Positions 19,738 to 35,066 of a stretch of 64,000 nt of DNA are shown here, piece after piece. The notes below the pieces were generated by a model. That model was not told where the DNA came from, made no database searches, and worked only from the letters and a program-made list of their open reading frames with translations. The DNA comes from Salipiger thiooxidans (GTDB lineage Bacteria; Pseudomonadota; Alphaproteobacteria; Rhodobacterales; Rhodobacteraceae): the NCBI RefSeq assembly GCF_900102075.1, contig NZ_FNAV01000001.1, positions 372,001 through 436,000 on the forward strand, given 5' to 3'. The stretch's first letter is position 1; each line of letters opens with the position of its first letter. The translations under genes were made by a program, and so were the position numbers.

Positions 19738-20817
19738 TCAGACGGGCGCCACGCTGCTCACGTCGGCGGCGAAGCGGGCGAGCGCGGCCGAGACCTCGCG
19801 CATCACCTCCTCCGCCTCGGCGAACTCGGGCTGGAAGGCGTGGCCGCACTCCATGGTGAAGCCCAGCACCTTGGCCTTGCCCGTATCCGCCCGGTGACGG
19901 CTGTAGGCATAGTCGTCGCTCGCGCCTGAGGTGGCGTAGAGCGAAAAGGATGCCGAGACCTCGTATTCGTCGCCCCGCACCTTGCGGATCTCCTCGGCCA
20001 TGAGCCGCGACAGGCGCGCCATCTCGGTGGCGTCGGCGGGCTCGATGAACTCGCGGTAGAGCGTGTCGCCCGCGATGCCGCGCTGGCCGTCATGGGCGGG
20101 GTTGAGGAAGTTCATCCCGGGCGCGTCGCTCTGCAGCTCGTCGAGCCCCCAGTTGTGGTAGATCGCCGGCACCGCGCTGTGGATGTCGAGATACCAGCCG
20201 GTGCCGGTGAAATGGTCGAGCAGCCAGACGATGTTGGCGGTCTCGGGCTCGGAGGCCGCTTCGGGCCCCACGTAGAGGTACTTGTTGCAAGGATCGTCCG
20301 AGGCGCTGACCGCGTCCGGGGCGAACGTCCGGCGGAAGTCCCAGGCCACGTCGAAGTTCCGGTTGATGTCGACCCCATGGCACACCCCGCCGTCGGGCCG
20401 CACGTTGCGGGCACGGTTCTTGCGCCAGTCGGGATCGACCTCCTGGCTGTAGATACGGCCGTCGGGATTGGCGCAGGGCAGGATCACCAGCTGCAGGGTC
20501 CCGAAGATCCGGCCGAGCTCTTCGGCACTGATCCGGGCGTCGCCCCAGCTGAGCCCGGTACCCGCCCGGCGCGCCTCGAGCAGGTCGGCGGCGAAATAGA
20601 GCAGCGCGTCGGGCGGGATCCACTCGCGCGCATGGACGCCGCCGACGTAGACCACGGTGCGGACCTCGGGCCCGCGGGTGTCGCCCAGCGCAAGCGCGAG
20701 CACGTCGCGCGCCTCGACGCTGGTGTTGGGAAGGGTCACGAGATCGCAGAATGCGCCATATTCGGTGGCGAGGTTGCGGACGCCGGTGACGATCTCCTCG
20801 AAGCTCAGGTAGCTCAT
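19738..20817 (-). CDS. M14-family zinc carboxypeptidase
   Basis: A 359-aa carboxypeptidase A-like enzyme. Zinc ligands are in GGVHAREW (HxxE) and YLDIHSAVP; arginines that bind the substrate C-terminus are likely in KNRARN and DINRNFDVAW; the catalytic Glu is in GFTMECGHAF. There is no signal peptide. Start 20817 is preferred to GTG 20823 because GGAAGGAG is correctly spaced only for the former. It begins 2 bp after the 98-aa protein's stop and ends an operon with a trypsin-like and a subtilisin-like protease. Confidence 0.92.
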   Translation of the reverse strand: MSYLSFEEIVTGVRNLATEYGAFCDLVTLPNTSVEARDVLALALGDTRGPEVRTVVYVGGVHAREWIPPDALLYFAADLLEARRAGTGLSWGDARISAEELGRIFGTLQLVILPCANPDGRIYSQEVDPDWRKNRARNVRPDGGVCHGVDINRNFDVAWDFRRTFAPDAVSASDDPCNKYLYVGPEAASEPETANIVWLLDHFTGTGWYLDIHSAVPAIYHNWGLDELQSDAPGMNFLNPAHDGQRGIAGDTLYREFIEPADATEMARLSRLMAEEIRKVRGDEYEVSASFSLYATSGASDDYAYSRHRADTGKAKVLGFTMECGHAFQPEFAEAEEVMREVSAALARFAADVSSVAPV

Positions 20818-20819
20818 GC

Positions 20820-21116
20820 TCACTCCTTCCGGCCATAGCCGCGTGGCACCACGCCACCAGCGAAGCGGTTGCCGGTCGGCACCATGCGCAGCCGCCGCGC
20901 CGCCGAGGGCATCTCTTCGAGCACCTCGATCCGGACGCCGCCCGCGCGCCGCCGGCCAAGCCGCGCAAGCTCGTCGTCATCCGAGATCACCTCGGTGGCG
21001 TAGCGGTCGCCGCGTTTCACCGCGACCGGGCGGCAGCCCATGTCGACATCGGCCCCGGCAAGGAAATCGCGCAGTTCGGGAATGGTTTCGGCGCTGACGC
21101 GCAGTTTCTTGGACAT
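20820..21116 (-). CDS. Hypothetical 98-aa basic protein in the peptidase operon
   Basis: Begins MSKKLRVSAETIPELRDFLA and ends RFAGGVVPRGYGRKE. It is rich in Arg and charged residues, with no signal peptide or membrane segment and only one cysteine. It lies 52 bp after the trypsin-like gene and 2 bp before the M14 gene. I recognise no family. Possible roles are a protease inhibitor, chaperone or substrate of the neighbouring enzymes, but nothing in the sequence decides this. Confidence 0.75.
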   Translation of the reverse strand: MSKKLRVSAETIPELRDFLAGADVDMGCRPVAVKRGDRYATEVISDDDELARLGRRRAGGVRIEVLEEMPSAARRLRMVPTGNRFAGGVVPRGYGRKE

Positions 21117-21168
21117 CGCATCCTCTCCTTGGGGAGGCGCCCGAAGGGTCCCGGGCGCCCGGTGGCGG

Positions 21169-22011
21169 TTACTTGGCCTCTTCCATCATCATCCCCATGG
21201 TCTCGCCGGCCCAGCCGTAGATCTCGGAGACACGGGTGTAGACGCCGTATTTCAGGCGCAGCGCGCAGCCCTGCCCCCAGCTCACGATGCCGACGAGCCG
21301 GTCGTCATCGCCGATGATGGTGTCGACCGGGCCGCCGCTGTCGCCCTGGCAGGCATCGACGCCGCCCTCGCGCTCGCCGGCGCAGAACATCGATTGCAGG
21401 ATCGCGCCGTCATAGCTTTCGGGCTCGTTGCACTCGTCGTTCGAGATCACCGGCACCTCAGCGAAGAGCAGCTCGTCCGAGCCGGGCCCGCCGAGCGAGG
21501 TCGCGCCCCAGCCCGAGACCCGCACGCGCGGTCCGACGGGAAGCTCTTCCTCGGGGCTCTGCATCTGGATCGGCATGCCCATGGTGGCGTCGGTCGCAAG
21601 CTCGACCAGCGCCGCGTCATGATCGAAGGTCGAGGCGTTCCAGTCGGGGTGCACGTGGATCGCGCTCACCCCGAGCAGCTCGCCGCCGCTGTCATAGGTC
21701 AGAGTGCCGGCCACAATGCTCAGCCGCTCGGGGTTGTTCTGCCAGAGCGGGCTGTCGACGCAATGCGCCGCCGTCAGCACCCAGTTGGGCGCCACCAGAG
21801 AGCCGCCGCAGAACTGGTTGCGCGCCTCGCCGCCGCCGACGAGCGCGACCTGCCACGGGGTATCGGCGATGTCGCCGACCGGCTCGCCGCCCACGATGAG
21901 CGGGTTCGCCGCGGGACCGGTGTTGTCCTGCGCCTGCACCAGCGGTGCAAGGCCCAGCGCAAGAACCGCCGTCAGGGCGGTCATCCTGAAGGTCATTTTG
22001 GAAACAGACAT
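21169..22011 (-). CDS. Secreted trypsin-like serine protease (S1)
   Basis: A 280-aa preproprotease. A signal peptide (TALTAVLALGLAPLVQA) is followed by a short pro-region and the mature-type N-terminus IVGGEPVGDIADTPW. Catalytic His is in LTAAHCV, Asp in FDHDAALVEL and Ser in CQGDSGGPV. Paired cysteines flank the His and Ser as in chymotrypsin-fold enzymes. The specificity position before CQGDSGG reads GVDA, consistent with a trypsin-like Asp six residues before Ser. ATG 22011 has GGAGGAG upstream. Eukaryote-like S1 trypsins of this form occur in scattered marine bacteria. Confidence 0.93.
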   Translation of the reverse strand: MSVSKMTFRMTALTAVLALGLAPLVQAQDNTGPAANPLIVGGEPVGDIADTPWQVALVGGGEARNQFCGGSLVAPNWVLTAAHCVDSPLWQNNPERLSIVAGTLTYDSGGELLGVSAIHVHPDWNASTFDHDAALVELATDATMGMPIQMQSPEEELPVGPRVRVSGWGATSLGGPGSDELLFAEVPVISNDECNEPESYDGAILQSMFCAGEREGGVDACQGDSGGPVDTIIGDDDRLVGIVSWGQGCALRLKYGVYTRVSEIYGWAGETMGMMMEEAK

Positions 22012-22069
22012 GAGAATTCTCCTCCGTTAGATCATTGGTTGAAAATGACGTGTCGTGGCTCTGTCGCGG

Positions 22070-23719
22070 TCATCCTGTCCCCCGTGTCGCCTCTCCGGCG
22101 CGGGGAGCAGCGGCGGCGACCCGCGGCGCGCCCCCTGCCGCCAGCTCCAGCGCCCGGGCCACGGCGGCATCCGCGTCGATGCAACCGTGGCCGTACCTGG
22201 TGGAATGGCCGTTCACGTAGTCCGCCGCGTCGCCAATGCGGCGGGCCGTGGAGCGGATCACCTCGCGGAGTTCTGCCGCAGTCAGGTCGGGGTTGGCGCC
22301 AAGCACGAGGCCGCAGATCCCGGCGACCAGCGGGCAGGCGCTCGAGGTGCCTTCGAACTCGGCGTAGTAGTCGCCCGGCTTGTAGCCGCGCGGCCGCTCA
22401 ACCCCGCTGCCGTCAATATAGGTGCCGGTCACGTCCGAGGTGGTGATCCCGAGCCCGCCCCGCCCGGCCGAGGGCGCGCAGATCGCGATCTCGCGCCCGG
22501 TCTGGGAGTAGCTCGCGCGGCGATCGAGGCTGGTGCAGGCGGCGATGGCGATCACGTCGGGATGGGTGGCGAAACCGTTCTGCGTGCGCGGCGGATCGTT
22601 GACGTCCTTGCCCGAGTTGCCCGCGGCGAAGACCACGACGGCGCCCTTGCCGCCGCGCCCCTCGGTCGCGCAGCGGTGGATGGCCCGCGCCACCCGCGCT
22701 GGAAGCGGATAGACCGCGGCCTCGGCGTTCCAGCTGCAGCTCACCACCCAGGCGCCGTGATCGGTGGCGTAGTCGAACCACTCGGCCACGTTGAGCGGCG
22801 AGAGGTGCTCGGTCATCCGCAGCGGCATCAGCGTCGCGTTGGGCGCCGCGCCGACGATCTCGCCGCCGCCGGACTTGCCCATGGCGACACCTGCGCAGGC
22901 GGTGCCGTGCCAGTCGCCGCCGCGCTGGTCGAAGAGGTCGGGCTCGGGCGTGACGTCCGCGGTGCCGCGGATGAAGTCACGGGGATCGACCGACTTGCCC
23001 GCAAGATCCGGGTGCATGAGGTCGAACCCGTCGTCGATCACCGCGATCACCGTCTCGGAAGAGCCGAGGCTCCCCAGCCGGCGCCACGCTGCGACCACGC
23101 GGGCATCCGCTCCGGCCTTGAGCCCCGCCGTGTTGCCGTCGATCTCGCCCCGGTTCTCGAGATGCCACTGCCGCGCGAGCATGGCGTCGTTCGGCAGGAA
23201 GGAGAGCAGGTTGCGCGGCGTGATCAGGTCAGGCTCGGCCAGCAGGACCGCGGGCTCGGCCTGCAAGTCCGCTGCGAGCCGCACCCCGTCGCGGGTGAAG
23301 GTCCGCACGGTGTGGAAGCCGCCCGAGGCCGAGACCAGCTCGAGATCGTAGCGCAGGATCACGTCGGTGATGGCATCGGCATCCGCATCGGGCTCGAAGC
23401 GCAGGAACAGCGTCCCCTCCGGCACGAAGGGCACCTCGTCATCCGAGGTGTGATAGACCGAGACGCTCTCGCGCACGTCGCGGGACCGGCCAAGCGCCGA
23501 GATCTCGGCCGCGGCCTCGACCTCGGGCATGCGCATGTCGACGATCTCGAAGCGGCCGAGACGGCCGCGCCGCTCGGTCGCCTTGCGGGTGCCGAGGCTC
23601 TGCAGGGTGGACTCGAGGCTGCGCGCGCGGCCCGGCGCGGGGGCCACGGCGACCTGCGTGGCGCTCTCGCGGAAGGCGACCTCGTGGCCGCCGATGCGAA
23701 GTGGAATTACATCTGCCAT
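22070..23719 (-). CDS. Subtilisin-family serine protease (S8), no signal peptide
   Basis: A 549-aa protease, first gene of the peptidase operon. After an N-terminal region of about 215 residues, which may act as a pro- or docking domain, comes the catalytic domain with Asp in VIAVIDDGFDLMHPDL, His in DWHGTACAGV, oxyanion Asn region FAAGNSGKD and Ser in EGTSSACPLVAGI. The first 30 residues are not a signal peptide, unlike secreted subtilisins. Start 23719 gives MADVIPLRIGGHEV. The next gene (trypsin) begins 58 bp downstream. Confidence 0.92.
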   Translation of the reverse strand: MADVIPLRIGGHEVAFRESATQVAVAPAPGRARSLESTLQSLGTRKATERRGRLGRFEIVDMRMPEVEAAAEISALGRSRDVRESVSVYHTSDDEVPFVPEGTLFLRFEPDADADAITDVILRYDLELVSASGGFHTVRTFTRDGVRLAADLQAEPAVLLAEPDLITPRNLLSFLPNDAMLARQWHLENRGEIDGNTAGLKAGADARVVAAWRRLGSLGSSETVIAVIDDGFDLMHPDLAGKSVDPRDFIRGTADVTPEPDLFDQRGGDWHGTACAGVAMGKSGGGEIVGAAPNATLMPLRMTEHLSPLNVAEWFDYATDHGAWVVSCSWNAEAAVYPLPARVARAIHRCATEGRGGKGAVVVFAAGNSGKDVNDPPRTQNGFATHPDVIAIAACTSLDRRASYSQTGREIAICAPSAGRGGLGITTSDVTGTYIDGSGVERPRGYKPGDYYAEFEGTSSACPLVAGICGLVLGANPDLTAAELREVIRSTARRIGDAADYVNGHSTRYGHGCIDADAAVARALELAAGGAPRVAAAAPRAGEATRGTG

Positions 23720-24114
23720 GTCGCACCTCCCGCGCGGCACGCGCACCGGGGGACGGACGGCCTGGCATCAGGGCACCGACAGGGAGGTGTGAGGGCGGCG
23801 CAAGATACTGGGAACGCTCCGGAAACGGGGCGGCAGAGCCTGCGCGGGCACACGGCTTCGAAATCCATTTCGCGAACTCCAATTTCATACGCGGGCCGAG
23901 GCTGGAGCGTAAGAAGGACTGAAGTGTTCAAAAATCAGGTCTAATGACTCGAGGAATGAAAAGAGTACACGCTATAGGGGAAATCTACCACAAGAGGAGG
24001 AAACCGTAAATGGAGTTTCAATTTTAGAGATTGCAGCACCCTGCCCCGATACGCGCCCCGACCCGAGGCGCGCAGGGCTCCGTTCCGCGTCCGCGCATGC
24101 CGGCCGGGAGTGCC
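23720..24114. other. AT-rich intergenic patch with an orphan Shine-Dalgarno and 5-codon ORF
   Basis: This 395-bp gap lies upstream of the S8 protease gene and downstream of the amphi-Trp gene. From about 23870 to 24035 base composition drops sharply below its neighbours. On plus, AGAGGAGG (23994-24000 region) is followed by ATG GAG TTT CAA TTT TAG, an open frame of five codons. No longer gene is convincing. It probably holds the promoter of the peptidase operon, but I could not pick a clear -35/-10 pair. Confidence 0.5.
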
Positions 24115-24387
24115 TCAGCCCTCGATGCGGGGCTGTCCCTTGGGCGAGGCAGTCTCGCCCGGATCGGCCCAGGACACCCGCAGGCTGAAGACGCAGCGGC
24201 CGTCCTCGCGTTCCGCCTTGATCCGCACGTTCATCAGGCCGCCGGTGTCGAGCACCAGCTCGTCATCGTCGTCGCCCAGCGTCATCCGGCCCTTGGAAAA
24301 GCCCTTGGACAGCGACGAGAGCAGCGTCTTGATCGTCTTCGCGTCCTGCAGCGACTCGTGGGTGAAACGTGAGTTTGAGCCGCCCAT
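24115..24387 (-). CDS. amphi-Trp domain protein (GAK-type system)
   Basis: A 90-aa protein matching the amphi-Trp domain as I recall it: a helical start (SRFTHESLQDAKTIKTLLSSLSKGFSKG), an acidic turn (LGDDDDELVLDTGG) and a strand-rich end finishing with FSLRVSWADPG, which holds the conserved tryptophan. ATG 24387 has a strong AAGGAGG. It is the last gene of the minus-strand GAK-type row, 32 bp after the metallophosphatase gene. The family is known only by association with ATP-grasp and HprK-like kinase genes; it may be the protein substrate or carrier of that pathway (inference). Confidence 0.85.
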   Translation of the reverse strand: MGGSNSRFTHESLQDAKTIKTLLSSLSKGFSKGRMTLGDDDDELVLDTGGLMNVRIKAEREDGRCVFSLRVSWADPGETASPKGQPRIEG

Positions 24388-24419
24388 GCGCAGCCTCCTT
24401 CGGATCGATGAAGCCGGAT

Positions 24420-25724
24420 CTACGCGGGGCGCCCCGGGGCGAAATGCTTGGCCATCGGGTAGTCCCGGCTCAGACCGATCACATCTCCGGACGGAAAGAT
24501 CAAGGTTGCCCCGGCGCCGATCCCGTCCAGCCCCTCGAGCCGCCGCGACGCGCGGTCGAGCGTGACGTCGCCCTCGAGATGCAGCAGCCCGCACTTGGCG
24601 CGGAGGGTCTGGCCGGTGTGGTTGTTGACGTGGCCCTGCACGATCATGTGCAGCCCGTCGCGGGTCAGCAGGTCGACGCCCGCCTGCGTCAACTCGCAAT
24701 CCGAAGGCCGGTACTTGGTGCGCACGAGGTTGGCGAGCGGCCCGAAGTAGAACCCGAGCGAGGCCTGCTCGGCCTCGGCCCGGTAACGCGCATTCACCGC
24801 GTCGGGGCCGCCGCTGACCAGCAGGCGGCACATGCTGTCGCAGAGACCCGCGTGCACGAAGAGCAGCGAGCCGCTGCGGGCGACCACCTCCATCTCCTCG
24901 TAGAACCACGCGTAGGGACCGCCGGGCACGAAGAAGACCTCGTGGCATTTCAGCACCGCGGCCAGCAGCTCGCGGTGGGTCATGCCGACCTTGGCGCGCT
25001 CGCGGTCGAACTTGGCGAGCTTCTCGTCGAGCTTGGCGATCTCCCTGGCGATGGCCGATGCACGCAGCTGGTCGCGCGCGGCCCCGGCAAAGCGCAGGTC
25101 CCAGTCGGGTCCCGGGGTGAGGCGCGCGGCGCAGGCGGCCTCGCCGGGCAGGGCGTCGAGCTCGGCGCCGGTGACGAAACGGTCGAACACCTCGCGCAGG
25201 GCGGGTAGGATCTTGCGGCCCATGCGCACGAAGAGGTGCTCGCGCAGGGCGCTGCGCGGGCCGCGCACCGCATCCACCGCCATGCGCATCCGCAGGTCGT
25301 GGTTGCCCGCGAGGATGTCGAGCTCGGCCCCCGAGGCGCGCAGGGCCGCCAGCGCATCCAGCAGGTCGAGGTTGCTCGGCCCCTTGTCGAGGCTGTCGCC
25401 GCCCACGATGATGCGCGCGCTGCGCCCGAACCCGGTGAGGGAAAAGCCCCCCGCCTCGCGCCGGATCACCCCGGCAGCGACGAGCGAGCGCAGGAAGCCC
25501 TCGGCATCGGCATGGGTGTCGGAGACGAAGATCACCGGCCGTGCGGGCCACTGCCAGCCGCCGTTGCTGCGGGCCCGTTCGAGGCAGGCCGAGATCTGCG
25601 GCTGGGCACTGGCACCGGGCCACGGGGCGATGTCCCGGGGCAGGTCGGCAAGCTGGCCGTGGGGGTCGTGGACCGGCGGCAGAAGGTCCGCCGCGTGACC
25701 GCTCCAATGGCTGACGTGTTCCAA
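24420..25724 (-). CDS. Calcineurin-like metallophosphatase (GAK-type neighbourhood)
   Basis: A 434-aa phosphoesterase. The motifs of the PPP/calcineurin fold are all present: DxH in FVSDTHADAEG, GDxxD in VGGDSLDKGP, GNHD in ILAGNHDLRMR, and two later His motifs, LFVHAGL and IVQGHVNNHTG. A helical insertion rich in Lys and Glu (about 215-250, KLDEKLAKFDRERAKV) lies between them. The reading starts at TTG 25724, which has GGAG upstream; no ATG is suitably placed. It follows the histidine phosphatase gene by 27 bp. Likely removes a phosphate added by one of the kinases in this row. Confidence 0.87.
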   Translation of the reverse strand: MEHVSHWSGHAADLLPPVHDPHGQLADLPRDIAPWPGASAQPQISACLERARSNGGWQWPARPVIFVSDTHADAEGFLRSLVAAGVIRREAGGFSLTGFGRSARIIVGGDSLDKGPSNLDLLDALAALRASGAELDILAGNHDLRMRMAVDAVRGPRSALREHLFVRMGRKILPALREVFDRFVTGAELDALPGEAACAARLTPGPDWDLRFAGAARDQLRASAIAREIAKLDEKLAKFDRERAKVGMTHRELLAAVLKCHEVFFVPGGPYAWFYEEMEVVARSGSLLFVHAGLCDSMCRLLVSGGPDAVNARYRAEAEQASLGFYFGPLANLVRTKYRPSDCELTQAGVDLLTRDGLHMIVQGHVNNHTGQTLRAKCGLLHLEGDVTLDRASRRLEGLDGIGAGATLIFPSGDVIGLSRDYPMAKHFAPGRPA

Positions 25725-25751
25725 TGCAGGGCCCTCTCCGTGCGGGCCGGG

Positions 25752-26444
25752 CTAGTCGACGGGCGCGTCCTTGGGGGCCCTGATCTTCCACGTCCCGGCG
25801 ACGTGGTACCATCTACCATGGCCCCTGTAACAGAGAAGTAACGCGCGGGCGTGGAACATCGAGAGCCCGGCGACCTCGTCCCGGCGCAGGATGCCGAGAT
25901 GTGCGCAGGCATGGCGGAACGAGGCGCCGTGGCCCACGTGCACGGTCAGCGCGCCGCCCGTCGCCGCCTCGGCCACGGCCTGCAGGTGGCCCGCGACGCG
26001 CACGCCCGCCTCGGAAAGGCTCTCGGCCCCTTCCAGCGGCAGGCGGTAGTCGCTGTCCGACTTCCAGCCCGGCGGCGGCGCGCCGAAGCGCGGATCCCCG
26101 GCCAGCACCGCCTCGATCTCGGCCACGGTGAGGTTCGCCGCCGAGCCGAGGCCGCGCTCGGCCAGCGCCGAGGTCTCGCGGATCTCGTCGACCCGGTGCC
26201 CATGCGCCCGCAGCTGCCCGGCAATGCCCGAGGCGGTCTGCCATGCCCTGAGCTGGCGCGAGGCGTGGACGACGGGATCGAGCGTCAGCCCGTGCTCGGC
26301 CAGCATCCCGGCCAGCGCGTCGCCGCAGTCCGACGCCTGTCGCAGGCCCTCGTCGCTCAGCGCAAAGGGCTGGCGGGCCGAAGGCGCGCCGGGACGCTGG
26401 CGGTAGGCGCCGTGGCGGACGATGGCGTGGTAGCTTTCAGCCAT
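25752..26444 (-). CDS. Histidine phosphatase superfamily protein (GAK-type neighbourhood)
   Basis: A 230-aa phosphoglycerate-mutase-like phosphatase. The RHG motif is IVRHGAYRQ near the N-terminus, a conserved Arg lies in HASRQLRAWQTA, the acid/base Glu is probably in ALAERGLGS, and the second catalytic His is in VHVGHGASFRH. The start at 26444 overlaps the HprK-like gene by 8 bp, so translation is coupled. SixA/cobC-type relatives act on phosphohistidine or small phosphometabolites; the substrate here is unknown. Confidence 0.88.
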   Translation of the reverse strand: MAESYHAIVRHGAYRQRPGAPSARQPFALSDEGLRQASDCGDALAGMLAEHGLTLDPVVHASRQLRAWQTASGIAGQLRAHGHRVDEIRETSALAERGLGSAANLTVAEIEAVLAGDPRFGAPPPGWKSDSDYRLPLEGAESLSEAGVRVAGHLQAVAEAATGGALTVHVGHGASFRHACAHLGILRRDEVAGLSMFHARALLLCYRGHGRWYHVAGTWKIRAPKDAPVD

Positions 26445-27525
26445 CGAAGATCCGCCGCCCCTCGGCCGCGAGCACGTCGAAATCAACCCGGCCCGAGACC
26501 TCGGACACGCGCACGCCGCGCAGCGCCTCGAGATAGGGCCCCGGCACCGGTGCGGCGCCGTTGGGTTCGAAGCTGCCATCGGGTCGCTGGTAGAACGGCC
26601 CGGGGCTCTTCATGATCGCGGCCAGCAGGTCAGGGCGGTCGTCAAGCGTCACCTCGGTCACCCGCGTGGGCCCCGCCGCGTCGCGCTGCCAGTTCAGCAC
26701 CCAGAAATCGGTGAGCGGCGCGGCGTATTGCACCCTTCCCGACCCGTAGATCTCGGAGACGATGAGGTCGTGCTTCTCCTCGAGCGACCAGAGCGCATCG
26801 GCAGGCATCGCCAGAAGCTCGGCGCGGCGCTCGGGCGCGATGAGCCCGTGCAGGCGCGGGTTGCCGAGGATGGTGCCGGGGTTGATGCGCGGCTGCTTGG
26901 GGATGCCCTGCGCCTGCGCGGGCGCCCCGCCCTTCACCAGCACCCGGTCGTTCGAGACGAAGGCGGTGCCGTCGATGTCCATCATCCGCAGCATCGAGGT
27001 CGACTTGCCGCCGCCCGAAAGGCCCGAGATCGCCAGTGTCCGCCCCTGCCCCGTCACCGCGGCGGCATGGCAGAGCTGCCAGCCCTCGCGCAGGCAGGCG
27101 CTGAGGATCTGGGTGTTGATGAAGTTGATCACCGTGCTGACGTTGTCGCCGAGCGGCCCGAAGGCCACCGCCACCCCCGGCGCCTGCAGGAAGGTCACGC
27201 CGCTGCGCACCTTGCGCACCAGCCGCCCGTCGTCGAGATCGCAGATCGCGTCCTTGCGACCGCTCTTGCCGCCCTCGCGCAGCCAGTCGGTCCACGCGGG
27301 CTCTGCCGTCAGCGCCTGCCCGGGAAGCAGGTCGACCACGATCCCGCCCGGAACGTCGGTCAGCACGTCGGTCAGCACGTCGGCGAAATAGCTCACCAGT
27401 TCGGCGCGCAGCGATGTCGGGGCGTGGACGGTGATACCGATACGGCCCACGGCGAGGTGGAACGGCTCGGCCGCACGGGCCGGAGCGAGGTCGAGTCCCG
27501 CCAGAATGTCACGTGCCACGCTCAT
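26437..27525 (-). CDS. HprK-related kinase (type B, GAK-type system)
   Basis: A 362-aa protein whose central P-loop, AISGLSGGGKSTSMLRMMD, followed by FVSNDRVLV, resembles the catalytic core of HPr kinase/phosphorylase. The remaining parts (N-terminal 150 residues, C-terminal GPFYQRPDGSFEPNG) are not those of true HprK, and no HPr gene is nearby. NCBIfam separates such proteins as HprK-related kinase B, found beside ATP-grasp and amphi-Trp genes (from memory). It overlaps the ATP-grasp gene by 4 bp and the phosphatase gene by 8 bp. A 12-bp tandem repeat near 27353-27386 encodes the DVLTDVLTDV segment. Confidence 0.87.
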   Translation of the reverse strand: MSVARDILAGLDLAPARAAEPFHLAVGRIGITVHAPTSLRAELVSYFADVLTDVLTDVPGGIVVDLLPGQALTAEPAWTDWLREGGKSGRKDAICDLDDGRLVRKVRSGVTFLQAPGVAVAFGPLGDNVSTVINFINTQILSACLREGWQLCHAAAVTGQGRTLAISGLSGGGKSTSMLRMMDIDGTAFVSNDRVLVKGGAPAQAQGIPKQPRINPGTILGNPRLHGLIAPERRAELLAMPADALWSLEEKHDLIVSEIYGSGRVQYAAPLTDFWVLNWQRDAAGPTRVTEVTLDDRPDLLAAIMKSPGPFYQRPDGSFEPNGAAPVPGPYLEALRGVRVSEVSGRVDFDVLAAEGRRIFDG

Positions 27526-28403
27526 GCGGTCACCGCCTGGTGGACGTGTTCCGCCACCAGCGCCGCCGCGTCGATGCCGCAGCCCTCGAGCGCGCCGCGA
27601 TAGCCGCCGAAGGCCGAGACCTCGAAGACGATGGGGCCGTCCGGGGTCAGCGCGATGTCGACCGTGGTGAAGGTCAGCCCGAAGGGCGCCTGCGCCCGCC
27701 GCCCGAGCTCGATCAGCGCGGCGTCGGGCTCGAAGGGCGCATACTTGCCGCCCGAATGGATGGTGGTGTTCCAGCTGCCGGTCTGGTTCACCCGGGCGTA
27801 GGTGCAGAGATACGCACCACCGAGGAACACCATGCCAAGATCGTGCCCCGAGAGATCGGCCTTCTTTTGCAGGTACATGACCGGGTTGGCGGCCTTGAAC
27901 GCGGCGATCTGCGCCTCGGCATCGGGCGCGTCCGCATCAAGCAGCACCATGCCGCGGGCCTTGGTCGAGAACAGCGGCTTGAACACCGCCGAGCCATAGC
28001 GGTCGAGCGCGGCCCTGGCGGCTGTCACATCCTCGGTGATGGTGGTGGGCGGCATCGGCACGTCGGCATTGGCCAGCGTCACGGTGCAGGCGAGCCGGTC
28101 CATCAGACGCAGGATGGCGGTGGCCGGGCTGAAGATCTTCACACCCATCGCCTCGGCCACCCGCAGCATCTCGAGCCGGTCGAGCGCGTCGGGGCTGTAG
28201 GTCTCGGCGATCTTCTTCACCACGAGCCCGTCGAGCGCGCAAAGATCCATGCCGTCGCAGACCAGCGCGCGGGTCCCGAGATCCAGCGTCACGCGCGCCA
28301 TGTCGATCACCTGGCGATAGCCGGTGCGGGCCTCGAGCGCGTCGGCAAGCGCCTCGGTCGACCATTTTCCGGGGGTGCCGATCACCCCGATCTTCTCAGT
28401 CAC
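27522..28403 (-). CDS. ATP-grasp enzyme (GAK-type system)
   Basis: A 293-aa protein of the ATP-grasp fold, resembling RimK-like ligases. The ATP-binding part includes SAVFKPLFSTKARGMVLLD; later come VMYLQKKADLSGHDLGMVFL, YARVNQTGSWNTTIHSGGKY and the Mg-binding end PIVFEVSAFGGYRG. Such enzymes join a carboxylate to an amine through an acyl phosphate. Start is GTG 28403, overlapping the upstream kinase gene by 8 bp. It matches the family I recall as ATP-grasp enzyme, GAK system. The substrate is unknown; the product could be a modified peptide or small amide. Confidence 0.88.
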   Translation of the reverse strand: MTEKIGVIGTPGKWSTEALADALEARTGYRQVIDMARVTLDLGTRALVCDGMDLCALDGLVVKKIAETYSPDALDRLEMLRVAEAMGVKIFSPATAILRLMDRLACTVTLANADVPMPPTTITEDVTAARAALDRYGSAVFKPLFSTKARGMVLLDADAPDAEAQIAAFKAANPVMYLQKKADLSGHDLGMVFLGGAYLCTYARVNQTGSWNTTIHSGGKYAPFEPDAALIELGRRAQAPFGLTFTTVDIALTPDGPIVFEVSAFGGYRGALEGCGIDAAALVAEHVHQAVTA

Positions 28404-30030
28404 TGAACAGCATCCTTATGGGCAGGCGAAGCCGCGTCTCCCTGCCCTCGGGCACGGCCAGCGCGGTTTCCAGAATGTAGCGGGCGCGCAGCATCATCCG
28501 GCGCGCGTGGTCCTTGTCGACGATGAACCGGGTCGAGCTCGCGAAGGACCGGGCCAGGCCCAGCGCGAGACGGTACTCGAAGGTCGGATCCTTCTGCCGC
28601 CGTGCGAACTTGGCGGCCATGTCGTGCATGTCGACGGCGACGCTGGCGATGCGGGCGCGGACGCCCGCGTCGAGCACCTGCAGACGGTAGTTCGAGACCA
28701 TGAAGACCGTCACGTCCTGCACGTAATCCATGTAGCGCGAGCGGTGCAGGTCGATGAAGCGCACCTTCTTCTCGACCGGGTCGTAGATCACGTTGTCGAG
28801 GTTGAAATCGCCGTGGATGTAGACCGAGAACGGCGCCCGCAGCCGGGCCTCGCGCCGGGCCGCGGTGGCGACCAGCGCGTCGAAACTGTCGACCTTCAGC
28901 CCCTGCAACCGCTGCGTGCCGATCTCGAACCTCGGGTGCAGCCGGTAGACGTCGGGCAGCCGCTTGCCGAGCTGGTCCATGGCCTTCATCTCGGCGGGCT
29001 CGTCGGTGCGGGTCCGGCGCCAGATGTCGCGCACCGTGGCGTGCAGCGCCTTCTGCGCCTCTGCGAGCCGCGCCTCGGAGCCGCCCAGCACGATGTCCTC
29101 GAAGGTCTCGCCGTCGAGATGCTCGATCAGCAGCGCGGCGGACTCCCCGCGTTTCTCGTAGGACAGGATCTGCGGCGCGAGCCCGGGGTAGACCGAGTTC
29201 CAGCTCTTCACCCCCACCCGCTCTTCCTTGACCTTGCGCCGGTCGCCGTCCTTGAACACCGCATCCACCGGGCGGCCCTCGGCGTCGCGCATGCTGACGC
29301 TCGAGATCGCGCTGCCGGAGCGGGTCTCGGCCAGCGGCTGCAGCCGGATCTCCTCGTCCTCCTTGCCCACGCCCGCCAGCACGCTGCGCAGGGTGAAGTA
29401 GCGCTCGAACTGCACGGTCTGCCCGATGTTGATCGACAGGATCGCCTCGCTGATCGCCTCGAGCGCCTCGCCCATCCGGTAGACCTCGTTCAGCGCCAGA
29501 AGCCCGTGCGCGAGATCCTCGGTGTGCCGGGTCCCCTGCATGTCCCGCGTGTAGGTGCGGAAGAGCTGGTCGTGGAAGACGCCCAGATCCGCGCGGGTCC
29601 GGCCGATCTGCACGGCGAGGCGGCTGTCGCCGGACTGCAGCGCCTCCTGCGCACGGGCCACGGACTTGCGCACCTGCTTGAGCGGCTTGAGGTAGCTGTC
29701 GGCGCGCAGGAGCTTTGTGCGCTGCACGTTCTCGGCGTGCTGCACCGAACGGCGCCCCAGCCGCGAGACAAGGTCGAGGTTGCGCGCGATGCCCTCGATG
29801 CCCTGCAGCTGCAGCTCGCGCGCGGCGCTGCGCTTGCCCCTGAGCATCCCCGCGAGACAGGCCTTGCGGACCCGCGAGGCGAGGTTCTGCGAATAGCCCG
29901 CCCGCCGGACCAGCCCCTGCGCCGCGTCGGGCCCGGGCGCCCCGAAATAGCCGATGAGCTTCGCGAGTTGCCCGTCGAGCTCGGCGAAGAGGAAGGAGAG
30001 GTTCTCGTCGACCGCCTCAGGACGTTTCAC
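28396..30030 (-). CDS. PhoU-like helical domain fused to an aminoglycoside-phosphotransferase-type kinase
   Basis: A 544-aa two-part protein. Residues about 1-235 are all-helical and PhoU-like (for example LASRVRKACLAGMLRGK and DLAHGLLALNEVYRMGEALE). Residues about 255-520 form a kinase-like fold: a possible ATP-binding Lys in VDAVFKDGDRRK, the catalytic loop YIHGDFNLDNVIYD with HGDxNxxN, and the metal-binding FIDLHRSRYMD. Start is GTG 30030, overlapping the NUDIX gene by 4 bp. The combination of domains in one chain is unusual. I infer a phosphotransferase acting on a small molecule or on another pathway protein. Confidence 0.82.
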   Translation of the reverse strand: MKRPEAVDENLSFLFAELDGQLAKLIGYFGAPGPDAAQGLVRRAGYSQNLASRVRKACLAGMLRGKRSAARELQLQGIEGIARNLDLVSRLGRRSVQHAENVQRTKLLRADSYLKPLKQVRKSVARAQEALQSGDSRLAVQIGRTRADLGVFHDQLFRTYTRDMQGTRHTEDLAHGLLALNEVYRMGEALEAISEAILSINIGQTVQFERYFTLRSVLAGVGKEDEEIRLQPLAETRSGSAISSVSMRDAEGRPVDAVFKDGDRRKVKEERVGVKSWNSVYPGLAPQILSYEKRGESAALLIEHLDGETFEDIVLGGSEARLAEAQKALHATVRDIWRRTRTDEPAEMKAMDQLGKRLPDVYRLHPRFEIGTQRLQGLKVDSFDALVATAARREARLRAPFSVYIHGDFNLDNVIYDPVEKKVRFIDLHRSRYMDYVQDVTVFMVSNYRLQVLDAGVRARIASVAVDMHDMAAKFARRQKDPTFEYRLALGLARSFASSTRFIVDKDHARRMMLRARYILETALAVPEGRETRLRLPIRMLFSD

Positions 30031-30473
30031 TGCGCAGCGCCCCCCAGGCAGACCGGCGCATCGGCGCGGGTCAGGGCAAGGTCGGAGCGGGGCCGGAACA
30101 GCGCGCCGGACTCCGACGGATCGGCCCAGGCGGTGGCGCTCTGGCGATGGTCGGGCCGGGTGCCCGGCCGCGGCTCGTAATCGTCGGGCACTTGGCCCCG
30201 GAACAGCATCCCGGTCTGCTGGCAGCGCTTGTCGCCACCGACGCGGAACACCTCCGCCACGAAGAGGATGTCGCGCAGCACAGGCGCCACCCCGATCTCT
30301 TCGAGGCATTCGCGGGCCACGCACCCGTGCATCGTCTCGCCGGGCTCCCGCCGCCCGCCGGGAAGCGGCATGTCACGCTGGCCGTCCGGTCTCTGCTTGA
30401 CTTGGACGCGCACGGGAGGTCCCTTGCGGATGACAGCGCGAACTGTCGGGCGGATGGAGAGGTCTTCGATCAT
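30027..30473 (-). CDS. NUDIX hydrolase (GAK-type neighbourhood)
   Basis: A 148-aa protein, first gene of the minus-strand GAK-type row. The NUDIX box is complete: GGRREPGETMHGCVARECLE then EIGV, fitting Gx5Ex7REUxEExGU. It hydrolyses a nucleoside diphosphate linked to another group; the C-terminal part (YEPRPGTRPDHRQ) may set specificity. It is transcribed divergently from the CofD-like gene, 91 bp away, so both are probably controlled together. Confidence 0.88.
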   Translation of the reverse strand: MIEDLSIRPTVRAVIRKGPPVRVQVKQRPDGQRDMPLPGGRREPGETMHGCVARECLEEIGVAPVLRDILFVAEVFRVGGDKRCQQTGMLFRGQVPDDYEPRPGTRPDHRQSATAWADPSESGALFRPRSDLALTRADAPVCLGGAAQ

Positions 30474-30564
30474 GAGGCCTTATGCTCCGAAGAATATAAC
30501 AGTTTAAAGGCATAATGGCTGTCGCTTTCGGCGTACCCCCGACGACAGGCCCGACGAGACAGTG
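30474..30564. promoter_or_regulatory. Divergent promoter region of the GAK-type genes
   Basis: This 91-bp gap between the NUDIX gene (minus) and the CofD-like gene (plus) is notably AT-rich in its centre (AGAATATAACAGTTTAAAGG). Flanking the AT-rich part are imperfect inverted arms, GCCTTATGC (30477-30485) and GCATAATGGC (30510-30519). This is a plausible shared operator and divergent promoter; no exact -35/-10 pair is assigned. Confidence 0.5.
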
Positions 30565-31746
30565 ATGACCGATATCCGGATCGAGCGCGAGATCAGCCTG
30601 CCCGACGCCCTGCGCGTGTCGCGCGCCGCAAGTGCCCCGCACCTTGGCCCACGGGTGCTGTTCTTCAGCGGCGGCAGCGCGCTGAACGGCATCTCGCGGC
30701 AGCTCAAGACCTATACCTTCAATTCGATCCACCTGATCACGCCCTTCGACAGCGGTGGCAGTTCGCAGATCCTGCGCGAGGCCTTCGACATGCCCGCGGT
30801 CGGCGACCTGCGCAGCCGGCTGATGGCGCTGGCGGACGAGACGGTATTGGGCCAGCCCGACATCTACGCGCTCTTCAGCCACCGGCTGTCACGTAACGCC
30901 CCGCAGGAGGAGCTGCGCGCCGAGGTCGCGGCGATGATCGAGGGCAAGCACCCGCTGATTTCGGCCATTGCAAAGCCCATGCGGATGCTGATCCGCACCC
31001 TGCTCGAGAGCTTCGCCGCCGAGGTGCCGCGTGGCTTCGACTACCGCAACGCCAGCATCGGCAACCTGATCCTCGCCGGGGGCTACCTGAGCAACGGCCG
31101 CGCGCTTGAGCCGGTGCTGTTCCTGATGTCCAAGATGGTCGACGTGCGCGGCACCGTGCGCGCCGTGGTCGACGAGACGCTGCAGCTGGGGGTCGAGCTT
31201 TCGGACGGGCGGGTGATCGTCGGCCAGCGCCAGATCAGCGGCAAGGAATCCGCGCCCATCGACAGCCCCATCGCCCGCCTGTTCCTGAGCGACGGCACGC
31301 AGGAGCTGGCGCCCGGCGACGTGCCGCTGCCCAAGCGCAACCGCAAGCTCATCGCCCAGTCGGACGTGATCTGCTACCCGCCTGGAAGCCTCTATTCGAG
31401 CGTGATCGCCAACCTGCTGCCCGCCGGTGTGGGCAAGGCGATCGCCGCGCGGCACGTGCCCAAGGTGTTCCTGCCGAGCCTCGGCGTCGATCCAGAGGCA
31501 TTGGGCCACGGGCTTGCCGACCAGGTGCAGGCACTTCTGGCGCCGCTGCTGGCGGATGCGGGCAGGACGATCCCTGCGCGGCAGCTGATGACCCACGTGC
31601 TCTGCGACCGATCGCAGAGCGACGCGGCCTGCGCCGAAGTCACCGCCCGCTTCGGCATCCCCTGCCACCGCCTGCCGCTGCGCCAGACCGATCAGGACAA
31701 GTACGACACGCGCAAGGTCGCGGAGCTTCTGGTTTCGCTGGGCTGA
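30565..31746 (+). CDS. CofD-like protein (GAK-type system)
   Basis: A 393-aa protein of the CofD/YvcK fold. The N-terminal nucleotide-binding segment is RVLFFSGGSALNGISRQLK; later come TPFDSGGSSQILREAFD, RNASIGNLILAGGYLSNG, and SDVICYPPGSLYSSVIANLLP, all typical of this superfamily. CofD proper transfers 2-phospholactate in F420 synthesis; no other F420 gene is visible, and NCBIfam has a CofD-related family of the GAK system (from memory). ATG 30565 is chosen over the adjacent GTG 30562. It is divergent from the other seven genes of the set. Confidence 0.88.
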   Translation: MTDIRIEREISLPDALRVSRAASAPHLGPRVLFFSGGSALNGISRQLKTYTFNSIHLITPFDSGGSSQILREAFDMPAVGDLRSRLMALADETVLGQPDIYALFSHRLSRNAPQEELRAEVAAMIEGKHPLISAIAKPMRMLIRTLLESFAAEVPRGFDYRNASIGNLILAGGYLSNGRALEPVLFLMSKMVDVRGTVRAVVDETLQLGVELSDGRVIVGQRQISGKESAPIDSPIARLFLSDGTQELAPGDVPLPKRNRKLIAQSDVICYPPGSLYSSVIANLLPAGVGKAIAARHVPKVFLPSLGVDPEALGHGLADQVQALLAPLLADAGRTIPARQLMTHVLCDRSQSDAACAEVTARFGIPCHRLPLRQTDQDKYDTRKVAELLVSLG

Positions 31747-32987: not shown

Positions 32988-35066
32988 TCAGTGGCCCGCG
33001 ATCAGGCCCATGCTCTCGAGCTTCAGGATCACCTGATGTGCGCAGTTGTCGACATCGGTGCCTTCGGTCTCGACGCGCAGCTCGGGGTTGGCGGGAACGT
33101 CATAGGGGTCGGAGATCCCGGTGAATTCCTTGATCTTGCCTTCGCGTGCCAGCTTGTAGAGACCCTTGCGGTCACGACGCTCGCATTCCTCGATCGTGGT
33201 CGCGACGTGGACCTCGATGAAGGCGCCGAACTGCTCGATGTCCTCGCGCACGGCGCGACGGGTGGTCGCGTAGGGTGCGATGGGCGCGCAGATCGCGATG
33301 CCGCCGTTCTTGGTGATCTCGGACGCCACGTAGCCGATGCGGCGGATGTTGAGGTCACGGTGCTCTTTCGAGAAGCCGAGCTCGGAGGACAGGTTCTTCC
33401 GGACGATGTCGCCGTCGAGCAGCGTCACCGGACGGCCGCCCATCTCCATGAGCTTGGTCATCAGAGCGTTGGCGATGGTCGACTTGCCCGAGCCCGAGAA
33501 GCCGGTGAAGAACACGGTGAAGCCCTGCTTGGAGCGCGGCGGCTTGGTGCGGCGCAGCTCGGAGACCACCTCGGGGAACGAGAACCACTCGGGGATCTCG
33601 AGGCCTTCCTGAAGACGGCGGCGCAGTTCGGTGCCGGAGATGTTCAGGATGGTGACCTTGTCCTTGTCGAGGATCTCGTCGTTGGGCTCGTACTGGGCCC
33701 GCTCTTCCACATAGACCATGTGTTTGAACGGCACCATTTCGATGCCCATTTCCTCTTCGTGCTGCTTGAAGAGCTCCTGCGCGTCGTAGGGACCGTAGAA
33801 GTCCTCGCCGGCGGAGTTCTTGCCCGGGCCCGCGTGGTCACGGCCGACGATGAAGTGCGTCACGCCGTAGTTCTTGCGGATCAGGCCGTGCCAGACCGCC
33901 TCGCGGGGGCCGGCCATGCGCATGGCGAGCGGCAGCAGCGACATGGTGGTGGTCGACGCCGGGTACTTGTCGAGAACCGCCTCGTAGCAGCGCACGCGGG
34001 TGAAGTGGTCGACGTCGCCGGGCTTGGTCATGCCGACGACCGGGTGGATCAGCAGGTTGGCCTGCGATTCACGGGCGGCGCGGAAGGTCAGCTCCTGGTG
34101 GGCGCGGTGCAGCGGGTTCCGGGTCTGGAACGCCACGACCTTGCGCCAGCCAAGCTTGCGGAAGTAGGCGCGCAGCTCGTTCGGGGTGTCGCGACGGGCG
34201 CGGAAGTCGTAGTGCACCGGCTGCTGGATGCCGGTCACCGGGCCGCCGAGGTAGATCTTGCCGGCGGTGTTGTGCAGGTAGTTGACGGCGGGGTGCGCGT
34301 CGTCGTCGGCACCGAAGACCTTCTCGGCTTCCTTCGCCTTGTTCGGCTCCCACTTGTCGGTGACGGTCATGGTCGCGAGGATCACGCCTTCCTGGTCACG
34401 CAGCGCGATGTCCTGGCCGATCTCGATCTTGTCGGCGAAGTCTTCCTTGACGTCGAGCGTGATCGGCATCGGCCACAGGGTGCCGTCTGCCAGGCGCATG
34501 TCGTCGATGACGCCGTCGTAGTCCGCCTCGGACAGGAACCCTTTGAGCGGGTAGAAGCCACCGTTCATGAGCAGCTCGAGATCGCAGATCTGGCGCGGGG
34601 TCAGGTCGTGCGAGGTCAGCTCGGCCGCCTCGACCTTGAGCTTCTGCGCGCTGTCGTACGAGACGAACAGCTCGGGGATGGGAGCAAGGTAGTTCTGCAT
34701 CAGACTTGTCCTGTTAGTGGAGGGGACGTATGGGCTGCCGGTTCCGGTCAGCTCTGCGTGAAGGGCCTGGTACTCCAGGAATTTCCGCGCGAGGAAACGG
34801 TCGGTGAGTCTGGCTTTTTCAGCCGCTCCGCGCGAGGTCAGCGTGTAGGCGAACCTCTGGCGCCGGTCCGGCCCCACACGCTCGCTCACTTTGATGAACC
34901 CAGCTTCGGCAGCCGCTCGCAGCTGCGCGTTGAGCCGCCCGAGGGAGACCCCGATGGCCGATGCGATGTCCCGCTGCGACGCTTCCGGCGCCAGGTCGAC
35001 CTGGCGCAGAAGGTGAAACAGGGGACCTTCCTCATCGGTAATCGGTTTTGCACCAGGTGCGGGCAT
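32988..35066 (-). CDS. MarR-like wHTH fused to bifunctional sulfate adenylyltransferase/APS kinase
   Basis: One uninterrupted 692-aa frame. Residues about 1-120 are a winged-helix domain like the EPS-associated MarR group (ASQRDIASAIGVSLGRLNAQ, AEAGFIKVSERVG). Residues 123-692 are the full Sat-CysC enzyme that makes APS and then PAPS: sulfurylase motifs RNPLHRAHQ and VGRDHAGPGK, then the APS kinase P-loop TGFSGSGKSTIANAL and DGDIVRKNLSSELGFS. The enzyme part alone equals the usual length of roseobacterial Sat-CysC (about 570 aa). An AGGA before Met123 (34700) would allow a second, internal start, so both long and short products are possible. PAPS production suggests sulfated polysaccharide or sulfate assimilation. 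Confidence 0.9.
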   Translation of the reverse strand: MPAPGAKPITDEEGPLFHLLRQVDLAPEASQRDIASAIGVSLGRLNAQLRAAAEAGFIKVSERVGPDRRQRFAYTLTSRGAAEKARLTDRFLARKFLEYQALHAELTGTGSPYVPSTNRTSLMQNYLAPIPELFVSYDSAQKLKVEAAELTSHDLTPRQICDLELLMNGGFYPLKGFLSEADYDGVIDDMRLADGTLWPMPITLDVKEDFADKIEIGQDIALRDQEGVILATMTVTDKWEPNKAKEAEKVFGADDDAHPAVNYLHNTAGKIYLGGPVTGIQQPVHYDFRARRDTPNELRAYFRKLGWRKVVAFQTRNPLHRAHQELTFRAARESQANLLIHPVVGMTKPGDVDHFTRVRCYEAVLDKYPASTTTMSLLPLAMRMAGPREAVWHGLIRKNYGVTHFIVGRDHAGPGKNSAGEDFYGPYDAQELFKQHEEEMGIEMVPFKHMVYVEERAQYEPNDEILDKDKVTILNISGTELRRRLQEGLEIPEWFSFPEVVSELRRTKPPRSKQGFTVFFTGFSGSGKSTIANALMTKLMEMGGRPVTLLDGDIVRKNLSSELGFSKEHRDLNIRRIGYVASEITKNGGIAICAPIAPYATTRRAVREDIEQFGAFIEVHVATTIEECERRDRKGLYKLAREGKIKEFTGISDPYDVPANPELRVETEGTDVDNCAHQVILKLESMGLIAGH

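Follow-up and report, generated by a model that had tools for sequence, protein, structure and literature searches.

Seven tightly packed genes on the minus strand and one divergent CofD-like gene on the plus strand lie at positions 24115..31746 of the window, the 64,000-nucleotide stretch of DNA that was analysed. All eight are present where a first, sequence-only reading had described them, with the minus-strand genes overlapping or nearly touching. The operon's first gene encodes a NUDIX hydrolase (30027..30473, minus strand; PF00293, 1.8e-10) and is followed on the same strand by a 544 aa PhoU-APH fusion kinase with a GTG start (28396..30030; APH 1e-12, PhoU), a GAK ATP-grasp ligase resembling RimK, LysX and MptN (27522..28403; TIGR04356), an HprK-related kinase B (HprK-B; 26437..27525; TIGR04355), a branch 1 histidine phosphatase (25752..26444; PF00300, 7e-15), a calcineurin-like (metallophos) phosphoesterase whose TTG start is uncertain (24420..25724; Metallophos) and an amphi-Trp protein of 90 aa (24115..24387; TIGR04354). 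An alternative upstream ATG for the histidine phosphatase, at 26579, would overlap the HprK gene deeply and is less likely. Overlaps of 4–8 bases join NUDIX to PhoU-APH, PhoU-APH to ATP-grasp, ATP-grasp to HprK and HprK to the histidine phosphatase, and the final two gaps of the row are 27 and 32 bases.

The CofD/YvcK-like gene (30565..31746, plus strand; TIGR04357) has a possible GTG start at 30562, and the gap that separates it from the NUDIX gene is 91 or 88 bp depending on the CofD start chosen. The earlier description of this gap as a 91-bp AT-rich operator thus holds for one of the two starts, and the gap is AT-rich in relative, not absolute terms, as the GC content of the 88-bp version is 53% compared with 68% for the window, with 2% of 88-bp windows equally low. 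A degenerate PHO-box-like site, ATGCCTT-N4-CTGTTAT, is located at 30496..30513 on the minus strand (4 mismatches), and a -10-like CATAAG (30479..30484, minus strand) follows 11 bp downstream of it.

Protein families

Profile-HMM comparison assigned four of the proteins to NCBIfam GAK families, all above the curated cut-offs: the ATP-grasp protein (TIGR04356, 443.4 bits, cut-off 300), HprK-B (TIGR04355, 288.2 bits, cut-off 200), the CofD-like protein (TIGR04357, 495.8 bits, cut-off 340) and the amphi-Trp protein (TIGR04354, 62.6 bits, cut-off 31), the latter falling slightly below the cut-off of Pfam PF20068 (25.3, cut-off 27). Pfam matches above cut-off were obtained for NUDIX, APH and His_Phos_1. 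The gene labels of the sequence-only reading are borne out by these NCBIfam and Pfam matches, except that PhoU and Metallophos are weak in the window proteins alone (E 0.0047 and 0.0039) and hold across their families, being detected at E <=0.05 in 52 of 59 aligned kinases and in 25 of 25 aligned phosphoesterases.

In the fusion kinase the PhoU domain is N-terminal, and a structural model (pLDDT 90) has a helical N-terminal half and recovers the APH fold, with HGDFNxDN and DLH conserved in the family. Motifs are also conserved in the histidine phosphatase (RHG and GHG), the NUDIX hydrolase (Nudix-box residues), HprK-B (a conserved His, the P-loop SGGGKST and NDR) and the phosphoesterase, where the DxH, GDxxDKG, GNHD, H and GHxN columns are retained in 84–85 of 90 sequences. 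Single-sequence searches of solved structures returned no credible relative for the phosphoesterase or for the HprK-related kinase, and no HPr kinase was among the matches of the latter. The CofD-like protein matched the Pfam CofD domain and, among solved structures, UPF0052/YvcK and unnamed proteins. The nearest solved chains of the ATP-grasp protein were RimK and LysX, and the nearest families after its own model were MptN and RimK. An inositol-kinase-like ATP-grasp was rejected, as its matches at E <=1 comprised 14 solved sequences, among them RimK, LysX and similar ligases but no inositol kinase. For the amphi-Trp protein, AlphaFold2 (pLDDT 84) predicts one helix and four beta strands, and a Foldseek search of the PDB gave no match under E 0.001 (best 0.42).

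Conservation and distribution

The gene set and, largely, its order recur in 94 loci that were chosen by their ATP-grasp. HprK-B is found in 94/94 of these, amphi-Trp in 92/94, the metallophos protein in 90/94, the histidine phosphatase in 86/94, a NUDIX homologue in 60/94 and the CofD-like gene in 48/94, and a SixA-NUDIX fusion is a frequent extra gene (36/94). A tally of neighbours revealed no constant additional partner, the commonest being HI0933-like/oxidoreductase (5/127) and CNNM/CorC (4/127) proteins, and the constant operon members of the surveyed loci include no polyphosphate kinase or phosphate transporter.

Within the host family (248 genomes, 247 genera), the 11 genomes that have HprK-B are, without exception, also the 11 that have the ATP-grasp. 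GAK was present in 13 of 398 genomes of a phylum sample, host included, and on 5 plasmid records. The sequence-only reading was to be given up if the proteins failed to match the GAK families or if the genes did not co-occur beyond this genome; both the matches and a co-occurrence extending far beyond this genome were found, and so its identification of the gene set stands.

Phosphate-related signals

According to PMC4415409, the PHO box consists of two 7-nt direct repeats with 4 nt between them, the E. coli motif being CTGTCAT. At <=2 mismatches, CTGTCAT-N4-CTGTCAT was found in 8 of 92 operon upstreams, compared with 3 of 421 upstreams of other ORFs and 3 of 1840 shuffles. The comparison ORFs were recurrent ones of >=180 aa and could include shadow frames. 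Two of the three control-upstream boxes sit before a CHAD gene. When counts in 77 dereplicated loci were compared across 420 anagrams, the true half-site ranked first whether 2 or 3 mismatches were allowed, and a gap of 4 was the peak among gaps 0–14 (8 vs <=2; 17 vs <=7). A box within 3 mismatches exists in 17 of the 77, so that most loci are without a convincing one. Loci with a good PHO box are of the L033, L034 and L065 types.

Other measures were less distinctive. By mean mismatch, the unrelated anagram TTTCAGC (4.36) was slightly ahead of the true half-site (4.39), and in an unbiased count of exact 5-mer direct repeats, made before the anagram and gap comparison, the PHO box did not stand out, its reverse complement TGACA at spacing 11 ranking 11th (3 loci vs 0.07 expected); the leading 5-mer repeats were taken for shared sequence of relatives. 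Downstream of the sites, a -10-like hexamer with <=2 mismatches was present in 9 of 16 cases, which were not dereplicated, vs 17.7% of random positions, with a best spacing of 10. The degenerate site in the window is placed, by eye, relative to ATAAGG as are the boxes of L052, L062 and L065, which have 2–3 mismatches.

CHAD is a polyphosphate-binding protein. It is encoded in the fetched flanks of 7 of the 94 GAK loci, in 6 of them with ParA alongside, and the genome studied here has a CHAD-ParA-CYTH operon of its own. In the host family, CHAD occurs in 9 of 11 GAK-positive vs 32 of 237 GAK-negative genomes (Fisher 1.8e-6), a count for which the first 6 candidates per genome were scored with a query built from loci near GAK operons. 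The association persists after stratification by size (p 3e-4, rounded genome sizes, 242 of 248 genomes), and a T6SS control gave 4/11 vs 53/237 (p 0.28). Outside the host family CHAD was no commoner with GAK (6/13) than without it (11/30). Upstream of CHAD operons at 16 further loci the best sites had 3–6 mismatches, which indicates that PHO control of CHAD operons is not general. A Na/Pi cotransporter-PhoU lies near the operon in L036 and L118. A pairing of GAK with PPK1 was dropped, as PPK1 is not enriched with GAK in host-family genomes (8/11 vs 209/237).

A proposed phosphate module and its alternatives

The reading that we favour, and to which we give an even chance, is that GAK is a PhoB-controlled module of phosphate/polyphosphate homeostasis. 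What the data show is the gene set, its order and co-inheritance, the domain identities, the enrichment of PHO boxes in a subset of loci and the co-occurrence with CHAD in the host family; we infer that PhoB induces the operon, and likewise all substrates, which way the flux runs and a link to granules. Under low phosphate, PhoB at the PHO box would activate the operon. Through the PhoU-APH kinase, phosphate status would be coupled to phosphorylation, either of a protein or of a small molecule, and the HprK-like kinase and RimK-like ATP-grasp would place phosphate and an amino acid on the same product or partner protein. Reversal or recycling may be carried out by the histidine phosphatase, the NUDIX or SixA-NUDIX protein and the calcineurin-like phosphoesterase, through splitting of phosphoanhydrides (polyphosphate, ApnA or a similar compound), with the amphi-Trp protein as a putative scaffold or target, while the CHAD-ParA-CYTH operon would connect the product with polyphosphate bodies and with the way these are segregated. 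Points for a phosphate role are PhoU fused to a kinase, the PHO box, CHAD, SixA-NUDIX and the Pi transporter; of these, the sequence-only reading named the PhoU domain alone and drew no link to phosphate from it. Points against it are the scarcity of convincing PHO boxes, with 4 mismatches in the window's own site, the mean-mismatch and 5-mer results, the CHAD counts outside the host family and the origin of the CHAD query, the lack of PPK1 enrichment, an operon in which neither a polyphosphate kinase nor a phosphate transporter is constant, and a RimK-like ligase without an obvious role in polyphosphate chemistry.

A possible but unlikely alternative is that the amphi-Trp protein is reversibly modified, being phosphorylated by HprK-B, extended with amino acids by the ATP-grasp and reset by the phosphatases, with phosphate merely one input. 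HPr kinase phosphorylates Ser46 of HPr, and RimK and LysX modify the C-terminus of their target. In favour are the constancy of HprK-B and amphi-Trp, two of the partners most rarely missing, the correlation of their distances (r 0.82) and a Ser directly before the amphi-Trp helix that is retained in 90 of 92 sequences. This Ser, the best candidate phospho-acceptor, is, however, replaced by Ala in two genomes of a single genus (L033 and L034) in spite of the kinase being present, and the C-terminus of amphi-Trp, the end that corresponds to the RimK and LysX target site, is variable by eye. The suggestion of the sequence-only reading that the pathway perhaps acts on the amphi-Trp protein stays tentative.

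It is doubtful that the operon serves biosynthesis or salvage of a phosphorylated amino-acid conjugate or cofactor, with the CofD-like protein and ATP-grasp used as in the side-chain assembly of F420 or tetrahydromethanopterin. The nearness of the ATP-grasp to MptN and RimK, the CofD domain and the small-molecule kinase fold of APH would fit such a role, but the CofD-like protein is nearest to UPF0052/YvcK among solved structures and was found in only about half of the loci, and PhoU, the PHO boxes and CHAD are left unexplained. An anti-phage or other mobile defence system, which the patchy spread, the plasmid records and the nucleotide-like enzymes might suggest, is very improbable and was rejected, as PADLOC gave a single match for the eight window proteins (NUDIX, at a weak 23 bits) and the 25 neighbour families met most often include none that was recognised as a defence family.

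The GAK families are curated yet orphan. If their role is phosphate homeostasis, the odd combination of a ligase with two kinase folds and several phosphohydrolases would become understandable, and a phosphate module that can be transferred would join the repertoire of marine bacteria. This reading gives an enzyme set that so far carries a placeholder name a role that can be tested.

Comparison with known systems

A more speculative form of the phosphate reading, which we consider improbable, is that GAK is a bacterial convergent counterpart of the eukaryotic inositol-pyrophosphate/SPX/VTC circuit. A new phosphorylated messenger would be built by the ATP-grasp, PhoU-kinase and HprK-like kinase and degraded by the histidine phosphatase and DIPP-like NUDIX, its output being carried by CHAD-CYTH-ParA to polyphosphate bodies, all under PhoB control. 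The likeness to DDP1/DIPP lies in the NUDIX half of the one SixA-NUDIX fusion tested (L115), for which the nearest chains are Ap4A hydrolase and DIPP; the difference is that this NUDIX domain is fused to SixA, which is the make-up of mycobacterial MutT1. According to PMC8064635, DDP1 acts on diphosphoinositides, dinucleotides and polyphosphate, and MutT1 may not cleave long polyphosphate.

The likeness of GAK to the Pho regulon, 7-nt direct repeats with 4-nt separation upstream, is convincing for some of the loci only, and the site in the window is degenerate. CHAD-ParA is found nearby or co-occurs, but it belongs to a separate operon and is no constant GAK member. HprK-B has in common with HPr kinase/phosphorylase the conserved His, the P-loop and the DR, residues with recognised roles in that enzyme, and differs in that the first Asp of the DDR motif is Asn. 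The closest comparison is with the NCBIfam GAK families themselves (TIGR04354–TIGR04357), all four of which are above cut-off and close together here. Those models are hypothetical equivalogs (a subfamily in the case of amphi-Trp) that name no function, and no paper on them was found in the literature library searched. New relative to that description are a near-constant PhoU-APH kinase, metallophos protein and histidine phosphatase, a frequent NUDIX or SixA-NUDIX protein, and the phosphate signals.

Composition of the GAK gene set

The eight GAK genes occupy 24115-31746 of the window, at the positions given by the sequence-only reading: seven on the minus strand, from NUDIX to amphi-Trp, and a divergent CofD-like gene. 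The identity that this reading had proposed was confirmed by profile search, as four of the proteins match NCBIfam GAK models far over the cut-off. The other four genes encode a NUDIX hydrolase, an APH-type kinase, a histidine phosphatase and a calcineurin-like phosphoesterase, the last being clear in its family assignment only across relatives (25 of 25 match); its metal-site columns are conserved in 84-85 of 90 sequences. The helical N-terminal half of the kinase contains a PhoU domain; its match is weak for the window's own kinase (E 0.0047), and 52 of 59 aligned family members show it at E ≤0.05 (best 1.9e-15). The predicted structure of this PhoU-APH protein (pLDDT 90) resembles APH(3') and choline kinases. 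As residues recognised as catalytic motifs are conserved in the HprK, APH, histidine phosphatase and NUDIX proteins, these enzymes look active. The ATP-grasp protein is a RimK-type ligase, so that amide formation is a likelier chemistry than inositol phosphorylation. The closest relatives of the CofD-like protein are UPF0052/YvcK-type proteins.

The amphi-Trp protein is small, with one helix and four strands predicted, and no structural match to it was found in the PDB. Its conserved residues are Phe, Gly, Trp and a His-x-Ser motif, the His being present in 90 of 92 sequences (Tyr in loci L033 and L124) and the Ser likewise in 90 of 92. Because this motif is near-constant, yet the Ser is replaced by Ala in two loci that retain the kinase (L033 and L034), the protein may be an acceptor, but not an obligatory one.

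Two other regions of the window were noted by eye. The minus-strand gene at 32988-35066 encodes a sulfate adenylyltransferase/APS kinase fusion with roughly 100 additional N-terminal residues resembling a winged-helix (MarR-like) regulator, and three neighbouring minus-strand genes at 19738-23746 are peptidase-like (M14 carboxypeptidase-like, trypsin-like and subtilisin-like).

Distribution and gene order

The GAK ATP-grasp exceeded the cut-off in 13 of 398 genomes of the phylum sample, host included; in a fourteenth (G033) it scored under the cut-off, the gene being cut by a contig end. Within the host family it occurs in 11 of 248 genomes (247 genera), and an independent search for HprK-related kinase B returned exactly the same 11. 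At least 493 relatives were confirmed in named genomes, the best 80 of which were retained, mostly from bacteria read as marine by name. Five plasmid records carry GAK.

The gene set had been proposed from one genome, and a survey of 94 loci (the window, the 80 named and 13 others), all picked via ATP-grasp and some cut by contig ends, established that its genes recur together beyond it. ATP-grasp is present in 94 of 94 by construction, HprK-B also in 94, PhoU-APH in 93, amphi-Trp in 92, the metallophosphoesterase in 90, the histidine phosphatase in 86, NUDIX in 60 and CofD in 48. The genes usually run in the order CofD (divergent), NUDIX, PhoU-APH, ATP-grasp, HprK-B, histidine phosphatase, metallophosphoesterase, amphi-Trp, with few departures, such as L036, where CofD lies downstream on the same strand. 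Pairwise distances among the eight families, compared only with one another, correlate at r 0.73-0.92, as would be expected for genes inherited together.

PHO-box-like sites upstream of the operon

A PHO box is described in PMC4415409 as two 7-nt repeats separated by 4 nt, the E. coli repeat being CTGTCAT. With at most 2 mismatches, CTGTCAT-N4-CTGTCAT occurs in 8 of 92 operon upstream regions, compared with 3 of 421 regions upstream of other recurrent ORFs, two of which precede a CHAD gene (L060, L038), and with 3 of 1840 Markov shuffles. At 3 mismatches the corresponding figures are 18 of 92, 12 of 421 and 55 of 1840. Among its 420 anagrams scored on 77 dereplicated loci, CTGTCAT matches the most loci (8 at 2 mismatches and 17 at 3), and the next best, TGTCATC and TCTGTCA, represent this site in a shifted register. 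Ranked on mean mismatch, CTGTCAT is placed second at 4.39, behind the unrelated TTTCAGC at 4.36. A gap of 4 exceeds all others within 0-14 (8 versus ≤2 and 17 versus ≤7 loci). A -10-like hexamer (≤2 mismatches) lies 8-13 bp downstream of 9 of 16 plus-strand sites, which were not dereplicated, versus 17.7% of random positions, the best single spacing being 10.

The site in the window (30496-30513) has 4 mismatches. Since its placement relative to ATAAGG matches by eye that of the boxes in L052, L062 and L065, which have 2-3 mismatches, we read it as a putative weak or decayed PHO box.

Possible links to polyphosphate and phosphate transport

CHAD is described as a polyphosphate-binding domain in PMC6537752. 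A CHAD gene lies within the fetched flanks of 7 of the 94 GAK loci, with ParA adjoining in six. A further 16 loci were selected for a close CHAD subtype, and ParA adjoins it in all 16; their pairing suggests a ParA-positioned polyphosphate body. Among the CHAD loci tested, a CYTH domain comes next in L126 (host), L130, L139 and, slightly under the cut-off, L129; a NUDIX domain comes next in L138 and also in L139. The host CHAD-ParA-CYTH operon, at about 92416-95332 (-) of contig C39 (L126, 6416-9332), shares its contig with GAK, some 300 kb apart. PHO-box-like sites of further CHAD operons have 3-6 mismatches only.

In the host family, CHAD (E ≤1e-5) occurs in 9 of 11 genomes with GAK versus 32 of 237 without it (Fisher 1.8e-6; p 3e-4 when stratified by size over 242 genomes of known size), and the close subtype alone in 6 of 11 versus 15 of 237 (size-stratified p 0.003). 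A T6SS control gene showed no such association there (4 of 11 versus 53 of 237, p 0.28, stratified 0.5). Outside the family CHAD is not commoner with GAK (6 of 13 positive versus 11 of 30 negative genomes). Among 49 of the 80 named genomes, all GAK-positive and without matched control, a CHAD protein of some kind is present in 39 and the close subtype, at >400 bits, in 21.

PPK1 is near universal in the host family (217 of 248 genomes) and not enriched there with GAK (8 of 11 versus 209 of 237). It is missing from 9 of 21 genomes with the close CHAD subtype versus 16 identified (at most 22) of 227 others; that the subtype is commoner without PPK1 hints at a different polyphosphate source in those genomes.

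A SixA-NUDIX fusion gene, its domain make-up checked on three examples, is found in 36 of the 94 loci, in 23 of these within the operon on the same strand. In the one fusion tested (L115), the NUDIX half is closest, among solved structures, to Ap4A hydrolase and diphosphoinositol polyphosphate phosphohydrolases. DDP1, of the same class, acts on diphosphoinositides, dinucleotides and polyphosphate according to PMC8064635, where it is also argued that the MutT1 relative may not cleave long polyphosphate, so that polyphosphate would be no more than a candidate substrate of the fusion. In L125 and L105 its frame is in two pieces, through frameshift, insertion or sequencing error.

Among 127 neighbour genes surveyed (from 42 loci, out of 218 candidates), two have a Na/Pi cotransporter domain, both together with a PhoU domain. 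One (L036, 13087-14988) lies about 640 bp from the start of the operon in divergent orientation; the other (L118, 16533-18416) follows amphi-Trp by about 1 kb with one gene between, in a locus that additionally carries CHAD and ParA.

Proposed role

Phosphate signals come from several directions, namely the sensor-like domain of the kinase, the promoter, the polyphosphate-binding partner, the transporter neighbour and the hydrolase class. For this reason we propose, at about even confidence (already slightly lowered by the mean-mismatch ranking of the PHO-box half-site), that GAK is a PhoB-controlled phosphate/polyphosphate homeostasis module. A search of 5.39 million open-access papers for GAK, amphi-Trp and HprK-related kinase found no publication on the system. 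NCBIfam already names the GAK families themselves; what appears to be new, within the literature searched, is their link to phosphate and the extended set of genes.
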